Below are positions 1,509-52,783 of a stretch of DNA of 64,000 nucleotides, piece after piece (the stretch's first letter is position 1; every line of letters starts with the position of its first letter). The notes under the pieces are model-generated. The model was given only the letters and a program-made list of their open reading frames with translations. It was not told the DNA's origin and searched no databases. The stretch is taken from NCBI RefSeq assembly GCF_018141405.1, contig NZ_CP058648.1:635001-699000 (forward strand). The letters run 5' to 3'. The position numbers were made by a program, and so were the translations under genes. Origin of the DNA: Serpentinicella alkaliphila. Lineage in GTDB: Bacteria; Bacillota; Clostridia; Peptostreptococcales; Natronincolaceae.

Positions 1509-1523
1509 ACCTATTTAATAAAA

Positions 1524-4494: not shown

Positions 4495-4499
4495 AGTTA

Positions 4500-4533: not shown

Positions 4534-4537
4534 TTGC

Positions 4538-5642: not shown

Positions 5643-5656
5643 TTAATACACCTCAT

Positions 5657-8326: not shown

Positions 8327-8406
8327 AATTTCCACCTCATTGTTAGTTTACTGTATAACATTATTATTGTATCATTAATTAGTTTTTAACACAATTATCT
8401 GACTTT

Positions 8407-9006: not shown

Positions 9007-9137
9007 TTTTTCACGCCCTTCTAAATTATAGATTATTTTAAATTTACCGATAAAAACACAAGTATCCTCTATATTTCGATAAAAATAGTACATTTCCTGC
9101 TTTAGTATAAAAATAAGTATAAATTGTGACAAAAAAC

Positions 9138-9170
9138 AAGAACAATATCCACTGGATGGATATTGTTCTT
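9138..9170 (-). terminator. Rho-independent terminator of hpf
   Basis: A 13-bp perfect stem (9138-9150 with 9158-9170) with a 7-base loop is followed on the minus strand by a run of T (GTTTTTTG). It ends the hpf transcript. Confidence 0.85.
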
Positions 9171-9195
9171 CTATATATTCTTTTATACTTTTACT

Positions 9196-10249: not shown

Positions 10250-10287
10250 AAAAATAACCCTCTAAATTAATTCAGAGAGTTATTTTT
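10250..10287 (-). terminator. Rho-independent terminator of the glycosidase gene
   Basis: A 14-bp nearly perfect stem (10250-10263 with 10274-10287) lies directly behind the stop codon and ends in a T-rich arm on the minus strand. Confidence 0.8.
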
Positions 10288-10288
10288 A

Positions 10289-11863
10289 CTATTCTTGTAC
10301 CTCTTTATATTTTGAAAGTCCAGTTCTAAATACATCCAACATTTCTTCAGTTTCATCTAATCTATATATCCTTCCAGGATTACCTTCTGAATCCCAATCA
10401 ATGCCATTCCACCAAATAGCAACTTTAATTCTATCAAATTGATCAATAGTATTAAACATATCTTTTATCCACTTAATTTTATCCCCACCTATAGAGCTAG
10501 AACCAAATTCGGTTATCATAAGAGGATGCTCAAAAGTATTAGCATACTCTTCATATAAATGTGGATAAATTTCATGAAACTCCTTCCAACTTTCCCCTTT
10601 AAAATGAGTACCTGGATTGTATCCAGTTAAGCCTACTACATCAACATACTCATCACCGGGATAATAGGTTAAATAGTGATTCCATTTAAAGCCTGGAAAA
10701 GAACCATCATGTGGATTCCATACCCAAATAGCATTATCTACACCCTGACTCTTAAAAATGTTATAAATATATATCCATTTAGCCTTAAACAGTTCAGTGT
10801 CATTAGATGTAAAATAACTAGAGTATATGCACCAATCACCATTCATTTCGTTATTTAATCTAAATAAAACAGGATGACCAAACTCTTTCATATCCTGAGC
10901 ATATTTTATTAAAAAATCGTCATACTTACCATTTAGTATATCGTATGTGATGCTAGTATTATCTGTATCACTATGATGGGTATATTTAGTTTGAAGTGTA
11001 AGTTCAACATACTTATTATTATTGTAAGCCCTTTGCATTTCTTTCATTGGAAATTCTGTTTTTAATGTTTGATATCTAACAAGAAACCCAAAGGGATAGT
11101 CTAGTCTTTCCTCTAGCTTATTTAAAAAATCATAGTGTGTAGAAGATGTCCATTCAAAAATTCCCCACTTCAGCCTATCTGCTTCTAAAAAATTTTCTCT
11201 ATAGAATCTTGCTGTTTCTTCATTAAAACTCTTATCTAATAATTTAAATGTTCTATTAATTGTAGGGGTTGCCTTTTTATCAACTAGTTTAAAGCTATTA
11301 ATTATACCCATATAGTTTTCTATTGGCTTTGAAGATTTAATAAAAATAGTATAAACCTCTTTCTGATTTTTAACAATTTTGGCATTTTTATAATAGTTTT
11401 TATCATTTGTTATATTATTAATTTTTTCTCTATGCCATTTTAGTAAATGTGTTCTAAATCCATTTACGGTTATATTTACATCCTTTTCAATCATATGATC
11501 TTTTCTATTATTTTTAAATCTACTACTATAGCTTATATAGCTATTAGCCGTATGTATCGTACCGTTAAAGTTGTCATAGTATATTTCAAAACGAGTATCA
11601 CCATCAGCAATTACTGTTCTAACATCCGAAAGTGATACATCCACCCACATATGATTTGGGTATTTGATCGAATATCCGTTTGAATAATCAATATATTCAT
11701 TCGTACTTCCAGGTATAATTACTTTAAAATCATCTTGTTTTGTAAACTGATTATTTGTCACTTGCATACCATTTCTTATATATAAATTATTTGAACTCGC
11801 AAAAACAGACGTAGTAAATAGACATATGGTCATTATTGTCGCCATAATTATTTTCTTAATCAT
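10289..11863 (-). CDS. Secreted glycoside hydrolase, GH26-like (beta-mannanase type)
   Basis: A 524-residue secreted protein with a signal peptide (cleavage near residue 22), an unassigned N-terminal domain of about 180 residues (with NGYSIKYPNHMWVDV, similar to lipid- or cell-wall-bound PsbP-like domains) and a C-terminal clan GH-A barrel from about residue 205. Two candidate catalytic acids are visible: E339 in FRLNNEMNGDW (acid/base) and E452 in MITEFGSSS (nucleophile). This pattern, and WVWNPHDG at 380-387, fits GH26. The true substrate could be mannan or another beta-glycan. AAGGAGATG precedes the ATG. It interrupts the usual closeness of the raiA-type RNA and hpf, so it may be a later arrival. 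Confidence 0.75.
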   Translation of the reverse strand: MIKKIIMATIMTICLFTTSVFASSNNLYIRNGMQVTNNQFTKQDDFKVIIPGSTNEYIDYSNGYSIKYPNHMWVDVSLSDVRTVIADGDTRFEIYYDNFNGTIHTANSYISYSSRFKNNRKDHMIEKDVNITVNGFRTHLLKWHREKINNITNDKNYYKNAKIVKNQKEVYTIFIKSSKPIENYMGIINSFKLVDKKATPTINRTFKLLDKSFNEETARFYRENFLEADRLKWGIFEWTSSTHYDFLNKLEERLDYPFGFLVRYQTLKTEFPMKEMQRAYNNNKYVELTLQTKYTHHSDTDNTSITYDILNGKYDDFLIKYAQDMKEFGHPVLFRLNNEMNGDWCIYSSYFTSNDTELFKAKWIYIYNIFKSQGVDNAIWVWNPHDGSFPGFKWNHYLTYYPGDEYVDVVGLTGYNPGTHFKGESWKEFHEIYPHLYEEYANTFEHPLMITEFGSSSIGGDKIKWIKDMFNTIDQFDRIKVAIWWNGIDWDSEGNPGRIYRLDETEEMLDVFRTGLSKYKEVQE

Positions 11864-11960
11864 TTAGTTCATCTCCTTCACTATTATGTCTACTTTTTTC
11901 ATTCGACAAAAATACATAAATTACCTTCAAATATTTACCTTCGAAAATGAAAAATCAAAA

Positions 11961-11995
11961 AAATAAAAAAGCTCTGAATTTTTCAAAGCTTTTTT
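11961..11995 (-). terminator. Terminator of the structured RNA
   Basis: On the minus strand AGCTTTGAA pairs with TTCAGAGCT (one GU pair) around a short A loop, followed by a long T-rich run (TTTTTTATTTTTTT). It sits about 10 bases after the end of the structured RNA and before the glycosidase gene. Confidence 0.8.
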
Positions 11996-12208
11996 AATAA
12001 GTACAGTGAAGCTGACCTGGTCTTTGACCCCACACTCGCCTGCTGGAGGGTTCGCTCGGGGTTGCCTTACTATTACCTCTCTCGGTATACCCGGCAGGTC
12101 TTACCTCTAAGCCGCACCATGATCGATAGCAACTTTTTTGCTAACTTACGTGGGTCCTTTTGCCTGCGACTGGCCTGGACTTACAACCACAGACCTTCTA
12201 TGCACCTT
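11961..12208 (-). ncRNA. Probable raiA-type structured noncoding RNA
   Basis: A GC-richer, non-coding stretch (about 12000-12208) stands out from the AT-rich surroundings. On the minus strand it has its own consensus promoter (12214-12242) and its own terminator (11961-11995), giving a transcript of about 245 bases. It contains a GGTC-AAA-GACC hairpin, an outer CCTGC/GCAGG pairing, and several unpaired conserved-looking segments. Length, independent transcription and location on the same strand upstream of hpf (raiA) fit the raiA RNA class known from Clostridia. It is not SRP RNA, tmRNA or RNase P RNA, whose hallmark segments are absent. The class name comes from context, not from a covariance search. 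Confidence 0.6.
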
Positions 12209-12213
12209 AATAA

Positions 12214-12242
12214 ATTATAACCGAAATTTAGATTTTAAACAA
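12214..12242 (-). promoter_or_regulatory. Sigma-A promoter of the structured RNA
   Basis: On the minus strand TTGTTT (12242-12237) is followed after exactly 17 bases by a perfect TATAAT (12219-12214). Transcription should begin near 12207, just before the RNA. Confidence 0.75.
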
Positions 12243-12246
12243 TAGT

Positions 12247-12717
12247 CTACTCTTTCTTATCTAAAAAAATAGAGGCACCTTCCATAGGTTTTCTATTATA
12301 TGAACTATATGCTTTCTTTCCTATCCGCACATTTTGCAAGTGTTTTTTTGACTCGTCCATATTGATTTTAGCTTGTTTCACATTACTATCATCCACTTGT
12401 CTAATCTTGTTTAGCATATCCATAATATCTCTAATTTTACTTTGTAAAGATTTAAAACCAATAACTGGTTCTGTTAATTTTTCAATATTTTCTATTCCTA
12501 AACCTCTTTTAACTAGCTCATATTTTTCTAAAAATTCCTTATCAAGAATATCAATTCTTTCAATTATATCTTGTTTTTCACCTATAGCTTTATTTAATAA
12601 CTCAACATTATTTTCTTTCAAGGCTTTTCCTTGTTTTAAAGTTATATCGTACATAGAATTAAGTAATTGAAATTTTCCATCACTTAGCTTTATTAAATAG
12701 CTAACTATTTCTTCCAT
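12247..12717 (-). CDS. Probable flagellar chaperone, FliT/FlgN-like
   Basis: A 156-residue all-helical, charged protein with no signal peptide. It follows fliS by 4 bases in the order flaG-fliD-fliS, where Firmicutes carry fliT. Regularly spaced leucines and isoleucines over residues 1-120 suggest a helical bundle like the FlgN/FliT export chaperones, which keep filament-cap or hook-associated proteins unfolded before export. Sequence similarity in this family is weak, so the call rests mostly on length, composition and position. The C-terminal 30 residues are basic and probably flexible. Confidence 0.6.
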   Translation of the reverse strand: MEEIVSYLIKLSDGKFQLLNSMYDITLKQGKALKENNVELLNKAIGEKQDIIERIDILDKEFLEKYELVKRGLGIENIEKLTEPVIGFKSLQSKIRDIMDMLNKIRQVDDSNVKQAKINMDESKKHLQNVRIGKKAYSSYNRKPMEGASIFLDKKE

Positions 12718-12721
12718 TTAA

Positions 12722-13105
12722 TCACCTATTTCCTAATTTAGAAACCTTCATTGCCTCTTTCCACGTATCTCTTAGTGAAGTAACTATTTCTAATGCTTCA
12801 TCTAGCGGGGCAATTTCCTTTTTAATATTACCATCAACTAACTTATCTAGAATAAATACATATAGCATTCTTAAATTCTTCGAAATTTCGTAATCCATGT
12901 TTAGTGTAACATTTAACTCCTGTATTATACTTTGGGCTCTTACAATTGTCTCGTTTGTTTTTTCGATATTTTTATTCTCTATATGTATTTTACTTTGCCC
13001 AATAAATTTAATTGCTCCATTATAAAGCATTAAGGTCAATTCTTCGGGACTAGCTGTCTTTACACTATTCTCTTTATAATTATTATATGGATTTTGCATT
13101 GCCAC
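12722..13105 (-). CDS. fliS: Flagellar export chaperone FliS
   Basis: A 127-residue helical protein with the FliS signature: NPYNNYKENSVKTASPEELTLMLYNGAIKFI at the N-terminus and the LRMLYVFILDKL helix in the middle. FliS binds the C-terminus of flagellin in the cytoplasm and prevents early polymerisation. The frame begins at GTG with GAGGTGA six bases before it; an internal ATG two codons later is the alternative. It lies between fliD and the fliT-like gene, with gaps of 20 and 4 bases, so it is co-transcribed with them. Confidence 0.95.
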   Translation of the reverse strand: MAMQNPYNNYKENSVKTASPEELTLMLYNGAIKFIGQSKIHIENKNIEKTNETIVRAQSIIQELNVTLNMDYEISKNLRMLYVFILDKLVDGNIKKEIAPLDEALEIVTSLRDTWKEAMKVSKLGNR

Positions 13106-13125
13106 ATTAAGTCACCTCACCTTTC

Positions 13126-14754
13126 TTACTTACCCATTCCAAGCTGAGACATTAGCCAGTTACCTTGTTGCTGCATTTGATTCATAGCTTTTTCCATAGC
13201 AGCAAACTGTTTCCAATACCTATCTTCTCTTCCTGCAATTATTTGCTCTTCCCGTGCAATCCTTTTATTAATATCGCTTAAATCTTTATCTATAACACTT
13301 ATATTTGAGTTTGAAGTAACAAAGTCGATTAGCATATTAGACTGTACTGTTCTAAATAAGGAAGCATCAGTACTGGTTCCTGAACGCCTAATTATATCCT
13401 TCATGCCTGTAATCATATCATTATATATCCGTTGTATTAGGCCAGATTCATTTGCCTGTTTCTGTCTAGCAGCCCTAATTTCCTCTTGACTGCCACTGGT
13501 TGGAACAACAGTGTCTGAAGTTTTAAATAATAGGTTTACAACACCCTCAGGGTCATTAGATATAGCTGCTTTTAGTTTCTCTTCATTAATAACTAGTTTA
13601 CCACCATCTTGATATGTACCAGTTGTAATACCTATACTAGTTATATGGTTAAACTGCCCTATAGTTCCCTGTACTTGATTATATAGACTAGATCTCATAC
13701 TTTGCTGAATTCTAGTTAAACCTTCATCCTGTCTAAGTAAACCACTTTTAGACTTTTCTTCCCATCTTTTAATGTCATCTTCTGACATAGCCTTCTTTTG
13801 CTCTTCAGTTAATGGTAAAAAGTCTCTAAAAATTTTCTGGCCTGTCAATCCATTTATTTCATCTATCATTTCGTTATAGCTTTTAACAAATTCTTGTACC
13901 TTATTGTATATGCCATCTACATTAGCATTTACACTAATATTAATACTAGTCCCAGGAGGACTAATAGATTCGAGTTGTAAGTTTATACCAAATACTGAAA
14001 AGCTATTAGTACCTTTTTCTATACGATTTTGTGCATCCAAACCATTAAAATATATAACAGAATCTTTGCCTGGTTTAGCATTGCCGGCAGTGCCAAAAAA
14101 TTCAGTTCCTTCTTTTAATGAAACTTCTTGCTTTGCACCGGTCTCTCTAGTAGTAACCATTAGCTTACCTAAATCCTTATCATATGCTGCACGTAAGCCT
14201 AGGTTTATTTTAGGTGAATTTTCTGTTTCTTGATATGTAGCACTGTTAATAGCCGAAACTAGCTCACCTATATTAGATATCTTACCTGGGTCAATTTCTA
14301 ATTTGACCTCCTTTAATGAATCGCCAATTTTAGTAGCAATTGTAATTTCTTTATTTACATTAAATGTGCCGTCAGAGTTTAGCATATCGTTAATATTTGT
14401 TGTGAAAGATGCTACTTCTGCAAGTTGATCTACTCTTACTGTATGTGTGCCATTTATTGCTCCAGTTGTAGCAGTTGCTTTAACTATACCTTCATTTGAT
14501 GAGTTAGCACTTTTTACCCAGTCAAATCTCTCAACAGTTCCTCTTGTAATAGCTCTTTCATTACCTGAAAAAGCTTTTCTTGTATTTAATATAAAATTAG
14601 CCATTTTACGATTTATATCGTTATAGGCCTCTTGACGCCATTTTACCCTCTGTTCTTGTTGCAATAGTCTATCTACACGGCCGCGTTCAACTTTCATCAA
14701 ATCTTTAACCATTTGCTCAGTATCCATTCCAGACGCTATGCCACCAATTCTCAT
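13126..14754 (-). CDS. fliD: Flagellar filament cap protein FliD (HAP2)
   Basis: A 542-residue protein with the FliD N-terminal motif (MRIGGIASGMDTEQMVKDLM) and the C-terminal domain rich in coiled coil (about 425-530, with YNDMITGMKDIIRRSG and INKRIAREEQII). FliD caps the growing filament and inserts flagellin. It is exported through the flagellar channel and so has no signal peptide. The length is normal and there is no sign of damage. Second gene of the flaG-fliD-fliS-fliT operon. Confidence 0.95.
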   Translation of the reverse strand: MRIGGIASGMDTEQMVKDLMKVERGRVDRLLQQEQRVKWRQEAYNDINRKMANFILNTRKAFSGNERAITRGTVERFDWVKSANSSNEGIVKATATTGAINGTHTVRVDQLAEVASFTTNINDMLNSDGTFNVNKEITIATKIGDSLKEVKLEIDPGKISNIGELVSAINSATYQETENSPKINLGLRAAYDKDLGKLMVTTRETGAKQEVSLKEGTEFFGTAGNAKPGKDSVIYFNGLDAQNRIEKGTNSFSVFGINLQLESISPPGTSINISVNANVDGIYNKVQEFVKSYNEMIDEINGLTGQKIFRDFLPLTEEQKKAMSEDDIKRWEEKSKSGLLRQDEGLTRIQQSMRSSLYNQVQGTIGQFNHITSIGITTGTYQDGGKLVINEEKLKAAISNDPEGVVNLLFKTSDTVVPTSGSQEEIRAARQKQANESGLIQRIYNDMITGMKDIIRRSGTSTDASLFRTVQSNMLIDFVTSNSNISVIDKDLSDINKRIAREEQIIAGREDRYWKQFAAMEKAMNQMQQQGNWLMSQLGMGK

Positions 14755-14772
14755 CTTACTACCCCCTTAAAC

Positions 14773-15129
14773 CTAAAGCTTTCTATCCATTAATATACCT
14801 GCAACTTCCAGCATGTTAGCTACCATATCTAACAACTTCTCAGGTGGCAGCTCACGAATAACCTCTCCAGTTGACGAATCAATGACTTTAACCATGAAAG
14901 TATTTGTTTTTTCATGTACTGACCTCTCAAATTTTCTGTCAAAAGCTTCAAAGCTTTTATTAGCCTTTTCTAATGCTTTTATTAGTTGCTCATCATCAAT
15001 TTTTTTTTCCTTAAGTTGACTTCCACTTTGTTGCTGTGTTTCAATATTAGGTTTAACGTCTCGACTTCCTTGCCCAGCTACTTTATTTGAAAGGCTTAAG
15101 TGATTCGAGCTCACACTTTCAATTTTCAT
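14773..15129 (-). CDS. flaG: Flagellar protein FlaG
   Basis: A 118-residue protein whose C-terminal half matches FlaG: FMVKVIDSSTGEVIRELPPEKLLDMVANMLE (about 79-109). The N-terminal 40 residues are polar and variable. FlaG affects filament length in several bacteria by an unclear mechanism. It heads the fliD-fliS operon; a sigma28-type promoter lies about 35 bases before the start codon, so this operon should be a late flagellar class. Confidence 0.9.
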   Translation of the reverse strand: MKIESVSSNHLSLSNKVAGQGSRDVKPNIETQQQSGSQLKEKKIDDEQLIKALEKANKSFEAFDRKFERSVHEKTNTFMVKVIDSSTGEVIRELPPEKLLDMVANMLEVAGILMDRKL

Positions 15130-15161
15130 ACGGATCCCTCCTGAACATACTTTATACTTAT

Positions 15162-15189
15162 TTATCGGATGAAATTCATAAAAAGTTTA
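15162..15189 (-). promoter_or_regulatory. Sigma-D (sigma28) promoter of flaG-fliD-fliS
   Basis: On the minus strand TAAA (15189-15186) is followed after 17 bases by CCGATAA (15168-15162). The hag and flgM promoters have exactly the same layout. It is located just upstream of flaG. Confidence 0.7.
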
Positions 15190-15295
15190 ATTATTTTGTC
15201 GTAAAACAAACAAAATTAATAAAAAATATTTAGATAATTTTATTGCTATTTGATAGAATACTATTAATGAATTGGTACGTAGGGAGAGGATAATA

Positions 15296-16117
15296 ATGAA
15301 TGAAATACAAGAAAAATATTATATATTAAATGGCACTAAAAATGAAACTAAAAAATTTAATCATGAAATAAATTTACAAAATTCCGTTTATGAAGTTATA
15401 AGGGTATTAAATGGGGTTCCACTTTTTGTTGAAGAGCATTTAGACAGGTTAAATGAATCTTTTAAACTTATTGGAAGTGATTATTCCTTAGAAAAAAAAC
15501 AATTAATTAGCTATATTGATAATTTAATTAAATTAAATGATTGTTATAACAAAAACATAAAAATAGTTGTTACAGATATAAATGAAGAGCCAAATTCTTT
15601 AATATATTTCATAGTGAGTAATTATCCTACAAAAGAAGAATATTCAAATGGTGTTAACGCTGTTTTATTCAAAGCCGTAAGAGATAATCCGAATGCTAAA
15701 GTTATTCATACTTCATTTAGAGAAAGCATAAAAGAAAAACTCGATAAACACCAAGCTTATGAAGCTATCTTAGTAAATCATTCTAATGAAATTACGGAAG
15801 GTAGCCGTTCAAATATATTTTTAGTTAAAGACAATACAGTATTTACACCACCGGCTGATGATGTATTAAAAGGTATAACCAGAAAACGAATTATTGAATT
15901 ATGTAATAGCCTAAACATTTGCGTAATTGAAAAAACTATCGCAGTAGACTTCCTTAAAGAGTCCGAAGGCTTATTTATGACTGGCACATCACCTAAAGTT
16001 CTTCCAATAGCATCTGTAGATGATTTACTATTTAATTCTAATGTTCATCCGTTAATCCTTAAAATAATAGATGAATATAATTTTTTAATTTCTAATTATA
16101 TAAAAGATTATGTATAA
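15296..16117 (+). CDS. Class IV aminotransferase (BCAT / D-amino acid / PabC type)
   Basis: A PLP enzyme of fold type IV, 273 residues. The family landmark EGSRSNIFLVKDNTVFTPP (about 161-179) and the downstream GITRKRIIELC (about 188-198) are clear. The candidate PLP lysine is in the segment NAKVIHTSFRESI. The family includes branched-chain aminotransferase, D-alanine aminotransferase and aminodeoxychorismate lyase; I cannot separate these from the sequence. Nearby branched-chain amino-acid transport genes make a link to those amino acids attractive but unproven. The ATG at 15296 is chosen because AGGGAGAGG lies six bases before it; the frame opens earlier with a TTG. Confidence 0.85.
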   Translation: MNEIQEKYYILNGTKNETKKFNHEINLQNSVYEVIRVLNGVPLFVEEHLDRLNESFKLIGSDYSLEKKQLISYIDNLIKLNDCYNKNIKIVVTDINEEPNSLIYFIVSNYPTKEEYSNGVNAVLFKAVRDNPNAKVIHTSFRESIKEKLDKHQAYEAILVNHSNEITEGSRSNIFLVKDNTVFTPPADDVLKGITRKRIIELCNSLNICVIEKTIAVDFLKESEGLFMTGTSPKVLPIASVDDLLFNSNVHPLILKIIDEYNFLISNYIKDYV

Positions 16118-16119
16118 CA

Positions 16120-16145
16120 AAAAGAAGAGGTCGCCCTCTTCTTCT
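16120..16145. terminator. Shared terminator between the aminotransferase and metS
   Basis: AGAAGAGG (16123-16130) pairs with CCTCTTCT (16135-16142) around a TCGC loop. The minus-strand reading continues with TTTTTG, so it mainly serves the converging metS transcript. Confidence 0.75.
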
Positions 16146-16154
16146 ATATTATGA

Positions 16155-16265
16155 TTACTCATTATCTTCCTTACCAGATTTATATGCTTTATTTAATAAA
16201 TATATAAATCCAAATCCATAAAAACCCAAAGTACAAACCATCATAATTACTGATGTTGTTGACAT
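16155..16265 (-). CDS. metS: MetS family small subunit of an NSS transporter
   Basis: A 36-residue microprotein: one membrane helix (about 5-26, rich in V, M, F, G) followed by a charged tail (KAYKSGKEDNE). The ribosome site AGGAGGT lies 9 bases before the ATG. It starts 17 bases after the stop of the sodium-dependent NSS transporter on the same strand. This size and arrangement are those of MetS, the small subunit needed with MetP for methionine and alanine uptake in Corynebacterium. The assignment rests on pattern and context. Confidence 0.8.
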   Translation of the reverse strand: MSTTSVIMMVCTLGFYGFGFIYLLNKAYKSGKEDNE

Positions 16266-16282
16266 ACTTAATTACCTCCTAT

Positions 16283-17779
16283 TTAGGAAATCGTACTGCT
16301 TTCCCCTTCAGTTATATCTCTACCTTTACCCACTTTTTTAGCAAGCCAACTATTAGTTACAAGTGCTACTACTATTAGTATTGCAAATTGAACAATAATC
16401 GTGCCTACACTAAATATTTCAAATGGATCCCACCAATTATCTGGGTACCAAGTAATTGACTGCCATATCCACCATCCTACAATTATTGTAAATAGAACTG
16501 GGAAAAGTCTAACACAATTCGACCACCATTTACCTATTTTAAAGTCTGCTCCATCAAGGTTGATTACAGCTCTTGCTCTTTCTAATCCATATTTCATCAT
16601 AGCAAACGCTACGAATAGACCACTTAGTAATAGACCTACTCCCCATACCCAATCTTGGTTATCTAAGAAGTTCAAACTATACGCTGAAGGTATTCCTAGA
16701 ATAAAACCAAAAACTGAAATAATTATTGTTGCTTTTTGTCTGTCCATTCCCATATCCATTAGGTTTCTAACCCCTACTTCTATCATAGGTAGTAGAGATG
16801 AAAGGGCAGCTATTGCCATTGCTCCAAAGAAGACAGCAGCTAAAATATTACCTGCTGGTAATTGTGTAAATAGCTGTGCTAAATATATAAAAGTTATACC
16901 AGTATTATTTGAAGCTAAGGCCTGCTCCGCAAACTGTTGAGTTGGAGAAAGAGCATAAATAGCAGGAAGTACTGTCATACCCGCAATTAATGCACCTAGA
17001 TTATCACCAAAGCCCATGATTAAACAGTTACCACCAATATCTTCTTTCTTTTTTGTATAAACTGCATAGGTAATTATAAAGCCCCAACCAGCTCCCGTTG
17101 ACCAAGCAGCCTGGGCAAAAGCCTGTAACCATATGTTATAATCCTTTAGCATATATAGCTTAGGGCTAAATAGATATTCTAGGCCTTGTGTAGCCCCAGG
17201 TAAAGTCAATGTTCTAACTACCGCAATTATTAGTAAGGCGAATAAAGTTGGAATCATAATTTTAGATGCCTTTTCAATCCCACCCGTTACCCCTTTATAA
17301 ATAATAAAACCAGCTACTAACATTGAAATGAAGTGAAATAAAATTGTTTGTGATGGTGTTGTAGTAAATGTATCCCAAATAGCCTTTGTCGCTACAGTAT
17401 CCATTCCTGGTTTAAATTCACCTGATACTGCTAAAGTAAAGTATTTAACACACCAACCCATTACTACTGAATAATAAAACATAATTCCTAAACAAACTAC
17501 GGCTATCCAAGTACCCATCCAAGTGTACTTTTTACCAACAAAATCTCTAAAGGCACCTATAGTACCTAGGCCTGTTTTTCTTCCCATAACCATTTCACCC
17601 ATAAGTAATGGTATGGCCCACACAAATAGGGCTATTGTCCATGCAATTATAAATGGTCCACCACCATTAGCTGCTGCTACTCTAGGAAAACGCCATATGT
17701 TACCTGTACCTATAGCCATACCTACTGCAGCCATAATAAATCCCCAGCGGCTACCCCATTGTTCATTTTTTTGACTCAT
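16283..17779 (-). CDS. NSS-family sodium-dependent amino-acid transporter (MetP-like)
   Basis: A 498-residue protein with about 12 membrane helices and the NSS hallmark in helix 1: WGFIMAAVGMAIGTGNIWRFPR (residues about 12-33), which forms the sodium and substrate site. It also has the conserved GGGPFI just after it. NSS proteins import amino acids with sodium. The tiny MetS-like gene directly downstream suggests a MetP/MetS pair for methionine, alanine or related amino acids. The start is supported by GGAGGGAC. Lies in its own two-gene unit between two terminators. Confidence 0.92.
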   Translation of the reverse strand: MSQKNEQWGSRWGFIMAAVGMAIGTGNIWRFPRVAAANGGGPFIIAWTIALFVWAIPLLMGEMVMGRKTGLGTIGAFRDFVGKKYTWMGTWIAVVCLGIMFYYSVVMGWCVKYFTLAVSGEFKPGMDTVATKAIWDTFTTTPSQTILFHFISMLVAGFIIYKGVTGGIEKASKIMIPTLFALLIIAVVRTLTLPGATQGLEYLFSPKLYMLKDYNIWLQAFAQAAWSTGAGWGFIITYAVYTKKKEDIGGNCLIMGFGDNLGALIAGMTVLPAIYALSPTQQFAEQALASNNTGITFIYLAQLFTQLPAGNILAAVFFGAMAIAALSSLLPMIEVGVRNLMDMGMDRQKATIIISVFGFILGIPSAYSLNFLDNQDWVWGVGLLLSGLFVAFAMMKYGLERARAVINLDGADFKIGKWWSNCVRLFPVLFTIIVGWWIWQSITWYPDNWWDPFEIFSVGTIIVQFAILIVVALVTNSWLAKKVGKGRDITEGESSTIS

Positions 17780-23638: not shown

Positions 23639-23917
23639 TTAAAAAGGAATACACTCATCATCTTCTTCTAGGTATGAGTGTTTTTCTTCTTTTTGTTCAC
23701 CAAAATAATAAAAATCCTCATTACAATTAGGGCATACCATAATCGGCATACCTTTTCTATTTTTATTTTGTTCTTCGTCGTACTCTTCGTCACAGTAGGT
23801 ATCCAAATCTGCAAACTCATCCACAATATCTGCGGGAGCCCACTCCAAATACTTACACTTCAAACAATGATATTTGTACAACTTTTCTTTGTAATGGCGC
23901 TCTACTAATGGGCTCAT
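23639..23917 (-). CDS. Small cysteine-rich protein of the IS91-like element
   Basis: A 92-residue acidic protein with two CxxC pairs: CLKCKY (about 19-24) and MVCPNCNEDFYYFG (about 60-73), which suggests a zinc ribbon. Its start overlaps the end of the transposase frame by about 65 bases in another frame, so it is probably translationally coupled and part of the mobile element. I do not recognise a named family. It might bind DNA or the transposase; that is inference. Confidence that it is a real gene is moderate. Confidence 0.5.
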   Translation of the reverse strand: MSPLVERHYKEKLYKYHCLKCKYLEWAPADIVDEFADLDTYCDEEYDEEQNKNRKGMPIMVCPNCNEDFYYFGEQKEEKHSYLEEDDECIPF

Positions 23918-25119
23918 ATAATATTTCCTCCATATCCCTAGATTCTCTTATATCATATATCACCCCATAGTCTTTATGCCATATTCTCCATAAAATTTTT
24001 TCAGTGGTACATTTTACACATAAAAGTGGATTTCTTCCGAAATTCTCTATAATCCTCTCTTTCCAGGTCTTTTTCTTTTCAAAACTTTTTCTCTTATCCC
24101 TAAGCAATTTTTCTATAGACTTTTCCTTCATAAAATTATATAGATGCACTATATCCTTGGATATCTTATTTCTTCTCCTTGAATACAGTCCATATCTTCT
24201 TACTGTCTTGAATCCTTTAGGTACTATATGTTGTGTTATTTTTCCTATAAATTCTAACACATCCATAGTTATCTTTACTTTTTTTCCATCGTTATGATCT
24301 TCATACCAAAACGTAACCTTTTCTCCATCATATTCCTCTATTCTATATTCTGCTATATTTGCTCTAGCAAGATATCTTCCTATGTACTTTACTGCTTGTC
24401 TTGTATCATTCAGTTTTCTCTTTGCATTAACATAAAACCCATTTGGATATCTTTTATACATCTCACTTATTAGCTGCCTGGTTTCATAACTATTAAAATA
24501 TTTCTTAATTATTTCTAGTAGCACCTTCTGCCATGCTTTCTTCAAAAATGGATATGGTATATATTCAACACTCTTCCACCAATTATTATTTCTATCTATT
24601 GCTCCCTCTGTTACTAATGCATGTATATGTGGGTTCCATTTCAAATCTCTTCCAAAGGTGTGCACTACAGCTATTATACCTACTTCATAATCACATTTCC
24701 TATTATTTTTATACCAATATGAAATTACGTTGTATACTGCATCCTGCAATTCTTTTAATAATTCTCTCCTTGCATAAAAGAAGTTTCTCAGTTCCTTAGG
24801 CATTGTAAATACACTATGTCTATGCCCTACCCTTAACATGTTCTGTTCTTTGCTTTTCGGCCCATTTTAGTGTATATACTCTTCCGCATTTATTGCAAAA
24901 CTTGCTTTTACATGTAAATGGTACTTTCGTTACACTAAAACAATCCTCACATATATATTCGGCATATCCATTTTTAACATCGCTACAATTTATAGCCTTA
25001 TTTACTAGATCATCTATATGTTCTCTCATAACCTTAGGAACTCTAGACCAGTATGTGTTTTTAAAGTCCTCATATCTATCTACCAATATCTCTTTAACTG
25101 TTATCTTTTTTCTATTCAT
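23853..25119 (-). pseudogene. IS91-family Y2 transposase, split by a frameshift
   Basis: The N-terminal frame (24820-25119) encodes the transposase zinc-binding domain: YICEDCFSVTKVPFTCKSKFCNKCGRVYTLKWAEKQ. The C-terminal frame (23853-24839) begins MLRVGHRHSVFTMPKELR and carries the HUH metal motif WNPHIHALV and the paired tyrosines YIGRYLAR. In homologues these are one protein of about 400 residues. The frames overlap by 20 bases; removing one A from the AAAA run near 24855-24860 would restore continuity. The element is probably inactive unless the frameshift is a sequencing error or is recoded. Confidence 0.8.
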
Positions 25120-41196: not shown

Positions 41197-42090
41197 TTAC
41201 AATTTATCTATCAAATCATAGAATCTATAAATTGTATTCCTTTTCTTATCATCAGCATAAATTTTACCAGATTCAAGTAATTTATTAGTATATCTTTTAG
41301 CAATATTATAACTTATACCTAAATCATCTTTCATACCATTTACTGTGAAAATTGGTTTTTTAAAGATAAATAAAATCGTATCTAAGCTTATCTTCACTTT
41401 CTTAGCAAAATCTATTAATATATTGTACATATTTTCGATATCCAGTAGTTTTGCTATATATTTTTCCGCTTGTTTTATTGATGCGTGTAGGTAAAAAATT
41501 ATCCATTCTTTCCACTTTGGGTTCTCAGTCCTTAAACCGTTTAATAGTACATAGTACTTATACTTATTCTTTTCGAGTTCCTCACTTACAAAAAATGTTG
41601 GATGAGTAATTACTTTTTTATCTAACAGATAAATAATTATTAATATTCTACCTAATCTTCCGTTACAATCTAAGAATGGATGAATAGTTTCAAATTGACC
41701 ATGTATTATAGCTGCTCTTGATAAAACTCCAAAATTATCTTCGAATTCGTCATTAATATATTTTTCTAAATTACTCATATACTGAGTAACAAATTGAGGT
41801 TCTGGAGGTATATATGTAGCATCTTCTATTTTTGTTGTGGGACCAATAAAATTTTGTACCTTCCTGTATTCACTAGGACTTCTAGTTTTTACTCTACTTT
41901 CCCTTAATATAACTTTATGTAATCTTAGAAACATTCTAGTAGAAATAGGTATTTCCTTAAGTAGATCTTCAGCACAGAGCTAAACTTTTCAACTTTAGCC
42001 CTTGCATCATTTTCTAACTTTAGTATATCAATAAGATCTTTATCAGAAATATTAATAGGCAAAAATTTTGGTTTAATGGCTTTTTTATAC
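41197..42090 (-). pseudogene. Fic family AMP-transferase-like gene, decayed
   Basis: The readable C-terminal part (41197-41934, 245 residues) holds the Fic fold with IHPFLDCNGRLGR at 84-96 of that part, plus a winged-helix tail. The core normally reads HPFxxGNGRxxR, so Cys replaces Gly. Upstream the coding similarity goes on in a second frame (KPKFLPINISDKDLIDILKLENDARAKV), joined by one missing base near 41966-41976, and another missing base in an A6 run (42081-42086) cuts it from an ATG at 42118. The usual inhibitory motif SSKIEGT is not present, as if that region were deleted. Most likely an inactive gene. Confidence 0.75.
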
Positions 42091-46741: not shown

Positions 46742-48334
46742 CTAGCTATATTTTGCTTCAGTACTTGTTTTGTCTATAGATATTATTTCACTGGTTTCTA
46801 ACACAACAGTCTTAGGTGTTAACTGAGCTCCATAATCTTCTTTTAACCACTTTAATAATGAAAACAGCATAGTTATAAGTATTGGCATTAATGGTAAAGC
46901 AACTACAATTGACGCTAGTTGTACAGCTGTTAACCCACCAGTAGCAAGAAGTCCTACAGCAAAAACTCCTAAGAAGATTGCCCATAGAGTTCTATTCCAT
47001 TTATTTGGTTCTTCATGCCCACTAATTTCTTTTGTAACCTGTGCTGAAAGAGTAAATGCAGCTGAGTTTAAAGTTGTTGCCAGAAACACTATACAAAGAA
47101 TAGTAAATATAGGTATAATTAGCCATTTACCTGCTGGTAGAGTGCTCAAAATAGCTATAATTGTACCTGGAGTACCTACTTCACTAACAATCTTCGCCAC
47201 ATCCAAAGCACCAGATGTCTGTACATCTATAGCGTAACCGCCCCATATTGCGAAAAATACCCAACATCCAAAACTTCCAAAAATTAATTCTCCAAATACT
47301 ACCTGCCTAATTGTTCTGCCTCTAGATATTCTTGCAACAAACAATCCCATCATTGGTGCATAGGCAATCCACCAAGCCCAGTAGAATACTGTCCACCCCT
47401 CAGGGAACCCAGCGTTGGCTATTGGATCTGTCCATAGACTAAGTCTTATAAAATCATTAAACATTAAACCAAGACTATTTACCCAGAGATTTAATATGTA
47501 AATAGATGGACCTGCTATAAATACAAATATCAGTAAGAAATAAGCAATGTACGTATTAAGATCAGCAAGTTTTGCAATGCCCTTTTGTAATCCAGCGTAT
47601 ACAGTAATTGAAATAAGACTTGTGAAAATTGTTAATGTAATTAATTGTAGTTGAAAACTCTCTGGTATTCCTAACATATTAGCAATTAATGCTGTTACTA
47701 GAGGTACTGCTAAACCTAAAGATGTTCCAACCCCACCAATCATAGCAAAAATTACCAATGTGTTAATTAATTTACCTAATGTTCCCTCTGCCCTACCACC
47801 TATAACTCCCTTACAAGCAGTGCTGAGTCTTAAAGTAGATGCCCTTTTAACATGTATAGCGTAGGCTATTGGAATTGTCGGCAATGCATATATTGCCCAT
47901 GGCGTAATTCCCCAGTGAAACTGACCTAGTACCCCTGCCCACTCTGCAGCCATAATTGATCCTGCCTCAACTCCTAAAGGTGGTCCTCCCATATAGTAAA
48001 CTGGCTCTATAAACGCCCAGTATACTATAGCAATACCTATACCTGCACAAAACACCATTGCAGCCCAGGTGTAATCAGAAAATTCAGGTTTATCCTCAGG
48101 AGCACCTAATTTTATTCTCCCCCACCGACTAGATCCAAGCCATACAAGAAACAGAACAGAAAACAAACCAAATAGTAAAAATGACCATTTAAAATTAGTA
48201 GTTATAAACGCAAACACCGAATTTACCATAGCGGATCCCTTCTCTGGATTAACCACTAATGATACTGAAAAAAGAAGTGTTACAATAATTCCAGGTAACA
48301 TTAAAGAATAATCTATATTACTCTTATTTTTCAT
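46742..48334 (-). CDS. BCCT family transporter (betaine/carnitine/choline/DMSP type)
   Basis: A 530-residue protein with 12 predicted membrane helices. BCCT landmarks are GIGIAIVYWAFIEPVYYMGGPPLG (about 97-120), FHWGITPWAIYALPTIPIAYA (about 139-159) and VFYWAWWIAYAPMMGLFVARISRGRTIRQ (about 319-347), whose Trp residues line the binding site for a quaternary-ammonium or sulfonium group. It imports such a compound with an ion or by exchange. It is the last gene of a three-gene unit with two CoA-transferases, so the cargo is probably metabolised as a CoA thioester rather than kept as an osmolyte. No large regulatory tail as in osmosensing BetP. Confidence 0.92.
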   Translation of the reverse strand: MKNKSNIDYSLMLPGIIVTLLFSVSLVVNPEKGSAMVNSVFAFITTNFKWSFLLFGLFSVLFLVWLGSSRWGRIKLGAPEDKPEFSDYTWAAMVFCAGIGIAIVYWAFIEPVYYMGGPPLGVEAGSIMAAEWAGVLGQFHWGITPWAIYALPTIPIAYAIHVKRASTLRLSTACKGVIGGRAEGTLGKLINTLVIFAMIGGVGTSLGLAVPLVTALIANMLGIPESFQLQLITLTIFTSLISITVYAGLQKGIAKLADLNTYIAYFLLIFVFIAGPSIYILNLWVNSLGLMFNDFIRLSLWTDPIANAGFPEGWTVFYWAWWIAYAPMMGLFVARISRGRTIRQVVFGELIFGSFGCWVFFAIWGGYAIDVQTSGALDVAKIVSEVGTPGTIIAILSTLPAGKWLIIPIFTILCIVFLATTLNSAAFTLSAQVTKEISGHEEPNKWNRTLWAIFLGVFAVGLLATGGLTAVQLASIVVALPLMPILITMLFSLLKWLKEDYGAQLTPKTVVLETSEIISIDKTSTEAKYS

Positions 48335-48364: not shown

Positions 48365-49543
48365 TTAAACTACCTTTTTACTTCTTAGATTTTGAACTTC
48401 CTCAACTGTAAACCCCATTTTAGTAAGTATGTCTTCCGTATGTTCTCCCAGCAATGGTGAAGAAATTTTTATAGCTGGAGGATTCTCGGATAACTTAATT
48501 GGATTTCCAACTAGTTTTATCTTACCTAATCCAGGATCATTAAGTTCAATTATCATATCTCGAGCTTTCAAATGAGGATTTTCGAAAGCTTCCTGTATAT
48601 TCTGAACTGATGCCACTGGAATACCTATTTTCTCCAACTTCTCTACTACTTCATTTCTAGTTTTCTCAGTAAAACTGTCTTCAATAATTTCCTTCAGCTC
48701 AAGATTATTTTTAATACGTGCTTCATTATCTTTGAATTTTTGATCAGAATGTATATCAGGTCCATTCAATACATTACAAAACTCTTTCCACATCTTATCA
48801 TTTTTTACTGCGATACTGACATATCCATCCTTTACTTTATAAACATCACAAGGTGCATAGTGGGCATTCATATTTCCCATTCTACTAATTATTTTACCAA
48901 ATGCCGTATATTCTAATATTGGATTTGTTGCCATTTGAATAAGAGATCCCAACATAGTTACCTCTACCTTCTGTCCCTTTCCAGTCTCTAACTTATTATA
49001 ATATGCAGTTGTTATACCTAAGAGTAACATCAAACCAGTATAACTATCCCCAATCGCTGGTCCAATTTTCGTTGGATCCCCCTCTGGAAATCCAGTCAGA
49101 TCCATAATTCCGCTCATAGCCTGAACAACATTGTCATATGCTGCAAATTTAGATAGTACACCCGAATCACCAAATCCCGATATAGACGCATAAATAATAT
49201 CTGGTTTAATTTCTTTCATCTGTTCATATCCAATTCCATAATTCTCTAAGGTCCCTGCCTTAAAGTTAGAACATACTATATCCGCATCTTTGACTAAATC
49301 GAAAATAATCTTTTTACCCTCTTCACTTTTAATGTTTAGAGTAATGCTTTTTTTCCCTCGATTAAAAGAGCTATAGTATCCACTATAATTGTTTTTAAAT
49401 GGCCCCCACCCCCTTGAAACATCTCCTTCAATTCTTTCTATCTTTATAACTTCTGCCCCAAAGTCTGCTAAGTTTAATGTGCAAAATGGCCCAGCATATG
49501 CATGGGTAAAATCAATTACTTTTACACCTTCTAAAAGATTCAT
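48365..49543 (-). CDS. Class III CoA-transferase (CaiB/BaiF family), catalytic Asp present
   Basis: A 392-residue family III CoA-transferase. The opening LEGVKVIDFTHAYAGPFCT and the block NRGKKSITLNIKSEEGK are typical. The Asp that forms the acyl-enzyme anhydride is present at D166 in GPAIGDSYTGLML. It moves CoA from one acyl-CoA to another acid. It follows its paralogue by 51 bases and precedes the transporter by 30 bases. Likely substrates are trimethylammonium acids such as carnitine or butyrobetaine, or DMSP; the sequence does not decide. Confidence 0.92.
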   Translation of the reverse strand: MNLLEGVKVIDFTHAYAGPFCTLNLADFGAEVIKIERIEGDVSRGWGPFKNNYSGYYSSFNRGKKSITLNIKSEEGKKIIFDLVKDADIVCSNFKAGTLENYGIGYEQMKEIKPDIIYASISGFGDSGVLSKFAAYDNVVQAMSGIMDLTGFPEGDPTKIGPAIGDSYTGLMLLLGITTAYYNKLETGKGQKVEVTMLGSLIQMATNPILEYTAFGKIISRMGNMNAHYAPCDVYKVKDGYVSIAVKNDKMWKEFCNVLNGPDIHSDQKFKDNEARIKNNLELKEIIEDSFTEKTRNEVVEKLEKIGIPVASVQNIQEAFENPHLKARDMIIELNDPGLGKIKLVGNPIKLSENPPAIKISSPLLGEHTEDILTKMGFTVEEVQNLRSKKVV

Positions 49544-49594
49544 TTTATTTCTCCTCTCCTTAAAGCTTTAAATTTTAGAAACTTACCCGATCAT

Positions 49595-50770
49595 TTAATT
49601 TTTTGCACTTTCCATATACTCTTTATTAATTCCAAATTCATTTAATATGTCATCTGTATCTTTTCCAAGTTCTGGTGCACATGAATCAAGTATAATAGGA
49701 GTATCACTTAATTCTATTGGTAGTTTTGGTACTTTGGTTTTACCCACTTCATTATCTACTATTTCCACCATAAAGTCATTTTCAACTATATGTGGATGGG
49801 TTACTATGCCCGGTACATCTAATACTTCCCCACTAGGTATGCCTACGGCTCTACATCTTTTCTCGATGTCGTATTTTGAAGTAGTTACTGTATACGACTC
49901 TACAATAGGTCTTAATTTATTTAGGTAATCATCACATCTTCCTTCATTAGTACTAAACCTAGGATCATCAATTAATTCTGGCATATAAATGACATGCTTA
50001 CATAGGTTTTTCCACTGTTCTTCATTGGCTACACCAATTGCAACGAAACCATCATTAGTCTTAAAAGTATCATAGGGAGCACAGGCAGGATCAAAATTTC
50101 CTTTTCTTGTCTGAATTTCTCCGCTCATAGAGTATGTAGCAGGAGCAGCTTCAATTATCGAGAATAGGGAATCTAATAATGAAACATCTATTTTTTGTCC
50201 TTTACCATTGATTTGTTTATTTATTAGCGCTAGCGTTATCCCTGTCGCTAGGTACCCAGCACCATAATACTCGCCCATAGCTACTCCCGCTTTGATTGGG
50301 TAACTATTAACAGTTCCAGTCATGTCCATAGAAACACCTAAAGCCTGTGCAACACAACTAGAACCTACTTTGTTTTTATACGGACCTGTGTGTCCAAAGT
50401 ATGAGTATGATGCATAAATTATTTTAGGATTTATTTTAATTACATCATCATAACCCAGTCCTAAACTCTCCATAACACCAGGACCATAGCTTTCGCAAAT
50501 TATGTCCACCTTTTCAATAATTTGTTTCAATATCTCTATCTCTTCTCTTTTGTTAATATCTAAAGTCATACTCTTTTTTCCAGAATTTAAGTAATTGAAG
50601 TATAAGCTTTTCCCTGCCTTTTGCGGTTTCCATTTTCTGCTTTTATTGCCTTCGTTAGGTTTTTCTACTTTTATTACCTCAGCTCCAAAACTAGCCAAAT
50701 ACATTGTTGTAAGGTTTCCTGCAAGGTTTTCTGTGAAATCCAGTACCTTAACTCCTCCAAGTGCTTTCAT
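49595..50770 (-). CDS. Class III CoA-transferase homologue, catalytic Asp replaced by Glu
   Basis: A 391-residue paralogue of the next gene, beginning LGGVKVLDFTENLAGNLTTMYLASFGAEVIKVEK, full length and undamaged. The site aligned with the catalytic Asp is E167 in AGVAMGEYYGAGYLA. That suggests either a changed mechanism or a structural partner that pairs with the Asp-bearing protein, as in heteromeric BbsEF or the two halves of DddD. It is the first gene behind a sigma54 promoter, with GAGAGGGGAG before its ATG. Confidence 0.9.
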   Translation of the reverse strand: MKALGGVKVLDFTENLAGNLTTMYLASFGAEVIKVEKPNEGNKSRKWKPQKAGKSLYFNYLNSGKKSMTLDINKREEIEILKQIIEKVDIICESYGPGVMESLGLGYDDVIKINPKIIYASYSYFGHTGPYKNKVGSSCVAQALGVSMDMTGTVNSYPIKAGVAMGEYYGAGYLATGITLALINKQINGKGQKIDVSLLDSLFSIIEAAPATYSMSGEIQTRKGNFDPACAPYDTFKTNDGFVAIGVANEEQWKNLCKHVIYMPELIDDPRFSTNEGRCDDYLNKLRPIVESYTVTTSKYDIEKRCRAVGIPSGEVLDVPGIVTHPHIVENDFMVEIVDNEVGKTKVPKLPIELSDTPIILDSCAPELGKDTDDILNEFGINKEYMESAKN

Positions 50771-50882: not shown

Positions 50883-50898
50883 AGCAAAAACTATGCCA
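50883..50898 (-). promoter_or_regulatory. Sigma54 (-24/-12) promoter of the CoA-transferase/BCCT operon
   Basis: On the minus strand TGGCAT-AGTTT-TTGCT matches the sigma54 consensus (TGGCAY-N5-TTGCW) at every conserved base, with GG and GC ten bases apart. It lies about 113 bases before the first CoA-transferase start. The neighbouring gene codes for a sigma54 activator. Confidence 0.85.
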
Positions 50899-51043: not shown

Positions 51044-51069
51044 AAATCTATTCAATTTTGAATAGATTT
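51044..51069. promoter_or_regulatory. Palindrome 2, likely activator binding site
   Basis: A 12-bp perfect inverted repeat (core CTATTCAA-TT-TTGAATAG) with the same TATTCAA-N2-TTGAATA core as palindrome 1. The two centres are about 78 bases apart. Degenerate related sites follow at 51068-51079 and 51097-51113. Confidence 0.6.
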
Positions 51070-51128
51070 CAAATATGAATAATCGAAAATAAAATTTTAT
51101 TATTGAATAATAATATCTTTGTTAACAG

Positions 51129-52508
51129 TTATTTATTCAATTCATTATCAATATATTTTTTTATAAGTCTATAAGCCTTTGGTTGACTGATTTTAAGCTC
51201 TTGAGCAACCTTAACACTATTTTTATACTTATTATATGTTTTAATAATAATTTGCTTTTCTAGTTCTTCTTTCATTTCATCCAAAGACTTGTTGTCTGTA
51301 TTAATTGTAGTTTTAGGTTTTTCATATACGTATAAATGTTTTGGTATATGCTGCGCAGTAATTTCAATATCCTCAACTAGAACTACAAGCTTTTCAATTG
51401 TATGAGATAACTCCCTAATATTACCAGGCCATGAATACGAACCTATTATCTTAATTGCTTCATTTGATATTGTATGATTTCTTTTATATGCTTTATTAAA
51501 CAAATTAATATAGTAATAAGTTAAGGCCAGTACATCTTCTTTCCTTTCTCTTAAAGAAGGAATTTCTATTTCAAAAACATTAAGTCTAAAATATAAATCT
51601 CTCCTAAAAGTCCCTAAGTCTACCATCTGCAATAAATTACAATTTGTTGCTGCAATTACTCGTATATCAACCCTAATGCTTTTCTGTCCACCAATAGGAA
51701 TAAACTCTTCATCTTGAATTACTTGTAGTAATTTTGCCTGTAGAGCTATTGGTATTTCCGATATCTCGTCCAAAAACAAGGTTCCTCCATTAGCCAATTC
51801 TATTAGGCCTTTTTTACCCTCCTTATTAGCACCTGAAAAAGCTCCTTTACAATATCCAAACAACTCTGATTCAATAAGATTATGACTTATACTTGCACAA
51901 TTAATATTCATAAAAGGTTTATCTCGTCTATCACTTTTTGAATGAATATACTTTGCTAAAAGACTTTTACCTGTCCCTGTCTCGCCCAGTATTAAGCAAG
52001 GAGATTTAACTTTAGAAATCTTCTTACATAAAGAAGTTATTTCTCTCATCTGATCACTTTGATAAATCAAATTCACATCTGAATCAACTAAATTTTTATG
52101 AGTTATCCCTACTTCATTAAATTCGCACTGTTGATGGGAAAGTTTATTAATACTATCTATATCATTCACACTCATTGCTACATATTTTATATCACCATTT
52201 TCATCAAATATAGGAACAGAAACCGTTAAAACATCTGCACCTAGTTTAGTAATTTGTTTGCGAGCTACCATTTTCTTCGTTTTATAAACTATCGGAAGAG
52301 TTGATTGTCCCCAATACGTTCCATCAAAAGATTGAAATTTTTTTCCAATCATACTCTCTGGAGAGACCCCATAATGTCTATAGCTTGCTTTATTTATATA
52401 AACTAGAGTATAATTATTATCAAAAACCATTATTTCGTCATGAAGATTATCGATGATTTCTTTAAAATTATCATTTTCAAAAACTTGCTCAATATTATCG
52501 AAATTCAC
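51129..52508 (-). CDS. Sigma54-dependent activator with PAS domain
   Basis: A 459-residue enhancer-binding protein: N-terminal PAS (about 10-120), central AAA+ domain with Walker A LGETGTGKSLLAKYIH, the sigma54-contact loop written GAFSGA instead of GAFTGA, Walker B GGTLFLDEI, and an R-finger region YFRLNVFEIEIPSLRERKED, then a C-terminal Fis-type helix-turn-helix (KVAQELKISQPKAYRLIKKYI). It should activate the adjacent -24/-12 promoter in response to a ligand sensed by PAS. The GTG at 52508 is chosen since AAGGAGG lies seven bases before it; the frame is open 13 codons further up. Confidence 0.92.
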   Translation of the reverse strand: MNFDNIEQVFENDNFKEIIDNLHDEIMVFDNNYTLVYINKASYRHYGVSPESMIGKKFQSFDGTYWGQSTLPIVYKTKKMVARKQITKLGADVLTVSVPIFDENGDIKYVAMSVNDIDSINKLSHQQCEFNEVGITHKNLVDSDVNLIYQSDQMREITSLCKKISKVKSPCLILGETGTGKSLLAKYIHSKSDRRDKPFMNINCASISHNLIESELFGYCKGAFSGANKEGKKGLIELANGGTLFLDEISEIPIALQAKLLQVIQDEEFIPIGGQKSIRVDIRVIAATNCNLLQMVDLGTFRRDLYFRLNVFEIEIPSLRERKEDVLALTYYYINLFNKAYKRNHTISNEAIKIIGSYSWPGNIRELSHTIEKLVVLVEDIEITAQHIPKHLYVYEKPKTTINTDNKSLDEMKEELEKQIIIKTYNKYKNSVKVAQELKISQPKAYRLIKKYIDNELNK

Positions 52509-52783
52509 GTATAACCCTCCTTGTACTTTGCTACCAAACTTCTTCAACCCACCAATATATCTTAAGTTAAAAAAATATAACCTATTTTGTATAATTCTAT
52601 TTTGATATCTATTACCTTCTTTTATTGACTATATTACATAAATCTAAGTGTAATATGCTCTGCTTAAAATAGAAAAATAGATATTAAATATATCTACTTT
52701 TTTAGTATAACACAGTATTTACTTTTTCAAATGAGTTTGTTTCTTCACCATTATAAATGTTTAATTTTTATGCTAGCACACTG

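Follow-up and report, generated by a model that had tools for sequence, protein, structure and literature searches.

A predicted two-subunit class III CoA-transferase next to a DddT-type BCCT transporter in Serpentinicella alkaliphila, with DMSP as a possible substrate

Two adjacent genes for class III CoA-transferases, here termed E (the first) and D (the second), are found between the genes for a sigma-54 activator and a BCCT transporter in a 64,000-nucleotide stretch of the Serpentinicella alkaliphila genome, hereafter the window. The comparisons described below make it very probable that E and D form a single heteromeric class III CoA-transferase, in which D would be the catalytic subunit and E a degenerate partner. 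The predicted substrate is probably an onium acid; DMSP is the best guess at its identity, with a chance slightly short of even. The reading in its full extent, in which Bacillota would have a two-subunit, strictly anaerobic DMSP CoA-transferase/lyase that resembles BbuB/BbuC and takes over from DddD alongside a DddT-type BCCT and a DMSP operator, is put forward tentatively and is rather unlikely to hold in every part. The gene set, the key residues, the promoter, the repeats, and the clades are read from the sequence.

The genes are transcribed from the minus strand in the order sigma-54 activator, E, D, and BCCT (Table 1), with gaps of 358 bases in front of E, 51 bases between E and D, and 30 bases between D and the BCCT gene. 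The CoA_transf_3 domain (PF02515) spans the full length of both E and D, which score above the Pfam cut-off of 23.3 bits, and they are the sole matches to this family in the 3.26-Mb, single-contig genome; a scan of genome contigs with E alone as the query found no relative. A preliminary description of this DNA had reported adjacent class III CoA-transferases with Glu in the catalytic slot of the first and Asp in that of the second. Both genes proved to be intact and to lie on the minus strand where it had placed them, and Glu167 and Asp166 are confirmed by the sequence and the alignment. Its statement that no hydratase or dehydrogenase is present is correct for the operon but not genome-wide, as acyl-CoA dehydrogenases (ACADs) are encoded elsewhere.

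Table 1. Features of the predicted CoA-transferase operon, in window coordinates
Feature	Position	Strand	Basis or remark
BCCT transporter, predicted DddT-type	46742..48334	-	Pfam BCCT, 491.7 bits
D, predicted catalytic subunit of the class III CoA-transferase pair	48365..49543	-	392 aa, second gene; Pfam CoA_transf_3, 420.2 bits
Codon of catalytic Asp166 of D	49046..49048	-	Sequence and alignment
E, predicted partner subunit, Glu replacing the catalytic Asp	49595..50770	-	391 aa, first gene; Pfam CoA_transf_3, 349.6 bits
Codon of Glu167 of E, catalytic slot	50270..50272	-	Sequence and alignment
Sigma-54 promoter element TGGCATAGTTTTTGCT	50883..50898	-	Exact match to TGGCAYRNNNNTTGCW
34-nt inverted repeat, operator core TTATTCAAACTTGAATAA	50962..50995	none
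26-nt inverted repeat, second operator copy	51044..51069	none
17-nt inverted repeat, possible third site	51097..51113	none	Operator pattern gives no match there
Sigma-54 activator with PAS domain	51129..52547	-	Start codon uncertain; Sigma54_activat, 224.7 bits; PAS_4, 27.6
HTH_50 domain of the sigma-54 activator			Score 21.3, under its cut-off of 27

Clusters of the window type are found in seven anaerobic Bacillota, S. alkaliphila included. In the alignment, the slot residue is Glu in all seven E proteins and Asp in all seven D partners, which argues that the Glu in E is not due to chance. The covalent Asp, a trait of the PF02515 family, is thus present in D (Asp166) and absent from E (Glu167). 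The window-type D proteins retain GPF, AYD, and the Asp in 7/7 cases (GPF, AYDN, and Asp166 in the window). In the E proteins, three pocket motifs are gone in 7/7, namely, the Asp and two more: AGPF has given way to AGNL-, AGSL-, or TISL-like sequences and AYDN to SS-containing stretches (AGNL and GSSC in the window). Asp169-to-Glu mutants of formyl-CoA transferase are inactive. With Glu in the slot and the other motifs altered, the covalent step is therefore probably beyond the capacity of E. A formyl-CoA transferase with the Asp169-to-Glu replacement has been crystallized (PDB 1vgr, entry title). In its structural model, E retains the class III CoA-transferase fold: the prediction reached a pLDDT of 92.6 with a 44-row alignment, versus 50.2 with 3 rows, and its best match is human SUGCT (9br7; Z score 45.3, rmsd 1.6, 389 aligned residues), the Z score against chain D of BbsEF (9fol) being 42.9.

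The clusters of Dethiosulfatibacter aminovorans DSM 17477 (L173) and of genome G860 (L243) encode E proteins that are 60 and 66% identical to that of the window, respectively, along with D (66 and 69%), BCCT (79 and 81%), and the regulator (52 and 48%). In Anaerotignum lactatifermentans DSM 14214 (L069), E, D, and the regulator are 53, 60, and 55% identical to their window counterparts, and the BCCT, at 34% (about 33 to 34%), is of another type. The three remaining clusters, L247 (G1114), L248 (G1123), and L250 (G1139), share 50% identity in E and 62, 62, and 65% in D. L247 carries the BCCT and regulator as fragments only; the contigs of L248 and L250 stop before any BCCT, and the L250 regulator is 55% identical to that of the window. 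Of the seven clusters, just three, namely, those of the window, L173, and L243, are seen to include a DddT-type BCCT. The system appears to be rare, since E-profile matches at E <= 1e-110 were found in 4/219 genomes in the order of D. aminovorans and 4/196 in that of A. lactatifermentans, with some of the matches belonging to the other pair type.

In the wider family, adjacent or fused pairs, the bbu type excluded, are found at 20 loci (the window, L033 to L038, L041, L068, L069, L173, L174, and L243 to L250), the fused version being at L041. A 66-row tree covering 12 of these pairs places the first subunits in one clade (99/92) and the second subunits in another (93/90), with the branching order (L069,(window,L173)) recurring in both; two separate, mirrored clades suggest an old heteromer. 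This tree was built after the removal of near-duplicates and of 11 distant or partial rows (the N part of L043 and rows of L071, L072, L073, L075, and L090), and pairs L243 to L250 enter the slot alignment only. In the 12 pairs, the slot of the first subunit holds Asp in 5 cases, Glu in 3, Asn in 2, and Cys in 2, and that of the second subunit holds Asp in 11 and Glu in 1 (L035), so the Asp has been lost in 7/12 first subunits versus 1/12 second subunits. A BCCT is present in the clusters of 8/12 pairs, which, with BbuE as a precedent, favors an imported onium acid as the substrate. At L035 (positions 934 to 3282), the slot residues are swapped, with Asp in the first gene and Glu in the second.

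Class III CoA-transferases are usually homodimers, and E and D might be two independent enzymes of this kind that are neighbors by chance, as the retention of Asp in 5/12 first subunits, all of them outside the window type, would allow. The mirrored clades, the loss of Asp almost exclusively from the first subunit, and the L041 fusion support the earlier proposal that the pair is a heteromer in which the second protein does the catalysis; taken with the recurrent adjacency and the three pocket motifs gone from every window-type E, they make chance neighborhood of two homodimers very improbable.

The closest proven precedent for such a heteromer, not named in the preliminary description, is BbuB/BbuC (GbuB/GbuC), the gamma-butyrobetaine CoA-transferase of Emergencia timonensis. 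Both systems contain two adjacent, unlike class III CoA-transferases and a BCCT. According to the sections of the bbu study cited here (PMC8364193), BbuB and BbuC are mutually required and were pulled down together, acetyl-CoA is the donor, the pathway needs BbuA, and Eubacterium minutum ATCC 700079 makes TMA from gamma-butyrobetaine. BbuB-like proteins, that of E. minutum among them, have Glu in the slot, as in the window E, in 3/4 cases and Lys in 1/4. In the tree, the BbuB-like clade is sister to the first subunits (92/86), E-type and BbuB forming separate clades; the best tree keeps the BbuC-like proteins apart from the second subunits, a grouping of the two not being rejected (p-AU 0.349). 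The window operon differs from the bbu system in the absence of BbuA, ferredoxin, and thioesterase, in having a transporter of another clade, and in its sigma-54 control. BbuA is absent from the genome as well as from the operon: the four ACADs encoded there are only 29 to 32% identical to BbuA, versus 80 to 85% identity among BbuA-like proteins, which rules out a BbuA encoded elsewhere in the genome. In E. minutum ATCC 700079 (CP016202.1; L067, positions 7225 to 10933), the bbuC-like gene is split, with about 2.3 kb separating its two parts, although this strain is reported to convert gamma-butyrobetaine; between the parts lie two opposite-strand ORFs of identical start, perhaps a mobile element.

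The BbuB/BbuC precedent and the sister position of BbuB to the E-type proteins also suit a heteromer that transfers CoA to a trimethylammonium acid, be it gamma-butyrobetaine, crotonobetaine/carnitine, or beta-alanine betaine, any downstream lyase being encoded elsewhere. This reading is possible, if doubtful. It draws further on the neighbors of related pairs, which in L033, L035, and L096/L174 are genes for BKACE and a ketopantoate-reductase-like protein (plus AtoDA-like genes in L033), a set that we take to resemble dehydrocarnitine cleavage, and in L244 an ACAD-EtfBA set located after the pair and the BCCT. Speaking against it are the genome without BbuA, the BbuE-type transporters, which share 31 to 33% identity with the window BCCT and have a different transport-site segment, and bbuA of L039, which has no upstream operator copies; these points leave beta-alanine betaine untouched. 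The gene sets of L096 (positions 4029 to 10200, the same as L174), L033, and L035, where the pair is accompanied by a beta-keto acid cleavage enzyme, a ketopantoate-reductase-like protein, and a BCCT, might represent an anaerobic carnitine/dehydrocarnitine route. In L244 (positions 7320 to 16591; G831), the regulator, the pair, and the BCCT are followed by an AcrC-like ACAD and EtfB/EtfA, suggesting acyl-CoA reduction.

CaiB is a homodimer. A carnitine system of the CaiB type, which the preliminary description had considered, is not supported: the pair shares with CaiB the fold and the covalent chemistry but is only 25 to 26% identical to it, the other cai genes are missing from the window operon, and both subunits remain under the 413-bit cut-off of the NCBIfam L-carnitine CoA-transferase (181.1 for D and 99.9 for E). 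BbsEF is likewise a heteromer, a single Asp of which bears CoA according to the title of PDB 9fol, but has an aromatic substrate and a different operon; it was compared here by PDB sequence scores and by the fold match. DddX, an ATP-dependent DMSP lyase that produces DMSP-CoA and then acryloyl-CoA, also adjoins a BCCT but belongs to an unrelated ligase family.

For comparison with DddD, a published forward primer (from the part of PMC7370799 cited here) was run against 122 Halomonadaceae genomes and matched in 10, exactly in 8. Among the primer-match regions opened (all but those of G724 and G730), 7/8 encode a fused protein of 835 to 843 aa; the region of L206, a one-mismatch match, contains no CoA-transferase. 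Regions opened after plasmid tblastn searches contain no fused protein, the candidate DddD of L172 is a single CoA-transferase, and L186 and L187 encode no fused protein. DddD resembles the window pair in that its first half is degenerate and the Asp is in the second, in adjoining a transporter of the window BCCT's clade, and in an operator common to the window and a clostridial dddD operon. It differs in being one fused protein instead of two gene products, in the distance of its halves from both window subunits (24 to 32% identity to D over parts), and in the slot of its first half, which holds Ser versus Glu in E. The AU test rejects a clade uniting D-type proteins and the C-halves of DddD (p-AU 0.0008), and its result is borderline for E-type proteins and the N-halves (p-AU 0.0505, log-likelihood lower by 22.95). 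The earlier idea of a split DddD is therefore not supported as a matter of descent.

A DddD of 838 aa, 45% identical to Halomonas DddD over its full length, is encoded in the window's own order (L230, positions 9873 to 12386; G096:C6), accompanied by a BCCT and by a sigma-54 regulator whose sequence is divided between two ORFs. In Thalassomonas (L091, positions 5995 to 8379) and "Ca. Planktophila" (L082, positions 5923 to 8364), pairs group with the DddD halves in swapped order, the first gene with the C-half and the second with the N-half.

Sequence comparison places the window BCCT most likely among the DddT-type transporters and makes it a predicted DMSP carrier. It is 79 to 81% identical to its counterparts in two orthologous clusters, 47 to 52% to BCCTs adjoining dddD, and 33% to CaiT. 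Of the 122 Halomonadaceae genomes, 119 had a match at 1e-60. The best 5 matches, and 8 of the best 11, flank dddD (in 5 genomes; adjacency in G724 was judged by the position of the primer match), and the other 3 (G747, G709, and G685) are 74 to 76% identical to DddT, with no dddD alongside. All 11 are of the DddT type, and the scores fall from 544 to 449 bits after the 11th. In the larger BCCT tree, the window, L173, and L243 proteins are joined first by L259 and next by DddT (99/99, 11-row clade); rows L077_1 and L068_3981 were left out of the trees. A 28-residue segment, presumably part of the lining of the transport site, has one and the same sequence in the window, L243, and 4/4 BCCTs directly adjoining dddD; its last two letters differ in L173, L259 has WG for WW, and CaiT and the BbuE-type proteins differ widely. 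In Halomonas D47, dddT and dddD are reported as co-transcribed in the cited part of PMC13104084.

Not every BCCT next to dddD is in the DddT clade, since the divergently placed ones of L203 and L204 group with BetT and are 29 to 30% identical to the window protein. The dddD-adjacent BCCT of L230 shows only 41 to 43% identity to it, and in 4/9 apparent dddD genomes (G692, G708, G725, and G730), the top matches include no DddT-type BCCT. Beyond the window-type transporters, the tree places L259 (54%) closest to the window BCCT, and its cluster includes 2-oxoacid oxidoreductase genes as well as one for an ADP-forming ligase; because of this other context, relatives of the window BCCT may carry other substrates. 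The L259 ligase was considered as a DddX and rejected, as it has Thr and Val in place of W391 and E432 (phmmer alignment, positions counted by hand).

The sigma-54 element is found in 14/16 upstream regions, 12 of them with an exact match, at a chance expectation of 0.3% per region. The putative operator, TTATTC-N6-GAATAA, was searched for with up to 2 mismatches. It is present in 2 to 4 copies in 6/6 window-type upstream regions (that of L243 being too short to count), with 0.12 to 0.20 expected in each; the copies in the window do not count as independent, because the pattern was derived from them. There are no copies in 5/5 upstream regions of the other pair type or before bbuA in L039. The REG-BCCT-DddD operon of L230 is preceded by two copies (0.08 expected), and its site TTATTCAAAAATGACTAA is identical over 18 bases to a site of L173; the L230 regulator falls outside the window-type regulator group. 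Among the remaining regions, there is one weak copy, in a region of L229, and none in the others, where a few gaps shorter than 60 bases test nothing. L229 (positions 3803 to 10474; G241) combines the same regulator and BCCT families with a 591-aa protein that has no NCBIfam match, and L228 (positions 7106 to 13343; G235) combines them with a trimethylamine-methyltransferase-like protein, suggesting a modular set of onium-compound operons.

The shared transporter clade and the shared operator thus link the pair to DddD operons, even though its enzyme is of the BbuB/BbuC kind. The earlier suggestion of a DMSP-type substrate gains support from the DddT-type transporter and from the operator common to the dddD operon of L230. 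The simplest account of these sequence features would be a non-orthologous replacement, with a heteromeric CoA-transferase performing the first step on the substrate of DddD.

In the proposed mechanism, the BCCT would import an onium carboxylate, most likely DMSP, and the PAS/sigma-54 activator might bind the TTATTC-N6-GAATAA repeats and turn the operon on in the presence of the substrate. E and D, as a hetero-oligomer in which D carries the covalent Asp and E completes the complex, would transfer CoA from acetyl-CoA to DMSP, yielding DMSP-CoA and acetate. Loss of the beta-dimethylsulfonium group would then release DMS and leave acryloyl-CoA (or 3-hydroxypropionyl-CoA); this step might be catalyzed by the E/D complex itself, much as DddD does, or by a separate enzyme. 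From its chemistry, a beta-sulfonium acyl-CoA should eliminate easily, which would explain why this operon, unlike bbu, encodes no further enzyme. Acryloyl-CoA could be reduced by AcrC-like ACADs with EtfAB, the genes for which are found in other parts of the genome. All four ACADs have their best scores against AcrC (499 to 575 bits, all under the 640-bit cut-off), and they could equally well be read as butyryl-CoA dehydrogenases; two are encoded with EtfBA near 597 to 603 kb and the other two elsewhere.

Alternatively, E/D might merely reclaim CoA or trade it between acids, such as acrylate and 3-hydroxypropionate, after cleavage by some other enzyme. An AcuN-type CoA-transferase is indeed encoded two genes from dddD in L200, L201, and L231 (the name acuN is from the cited part of PMC13104084; its assignment to these loci is our own). 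However, the window operon contains no lyase, and the tree places the AcuN-type row with YfdE and apart from both subunits; such a role appears improbable.

A literature search, mostly outside subscription papers, found no clostridial or two-subunit DMSP CoA-transferase; a similar two-part pairing is known from gut bacteria that degrade a carnitine product but not for DMSP. According to the part of a 2025 study cited here (PMC12596276), DMSP turnover in anoxic sediment yields DMS, a possible source of methane, and the anaerobic DMSP degrader named there uses a gammaproteobacterial dddD. If the E/D pair is a DMSP CoA-transferase/lyase, fermenters would have a route from DMSP to DMS and acryloyl-CoA, and such a heteromeric alternative would escape dddD surveys. 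The pair family, with its 20 loci, would mark genomes for anaerobic activation of onium acids, the first step toward DMS or trimethylamine.

Elsewhere in the window, a Y2_Tnp transposase-like gene (23853 to 24839) is flanked by an ABC amino-acid transporter set on one side and by a flagellin gene on the other, and positions 41197 to 41934 encode a protein of the Fic/DOC family.
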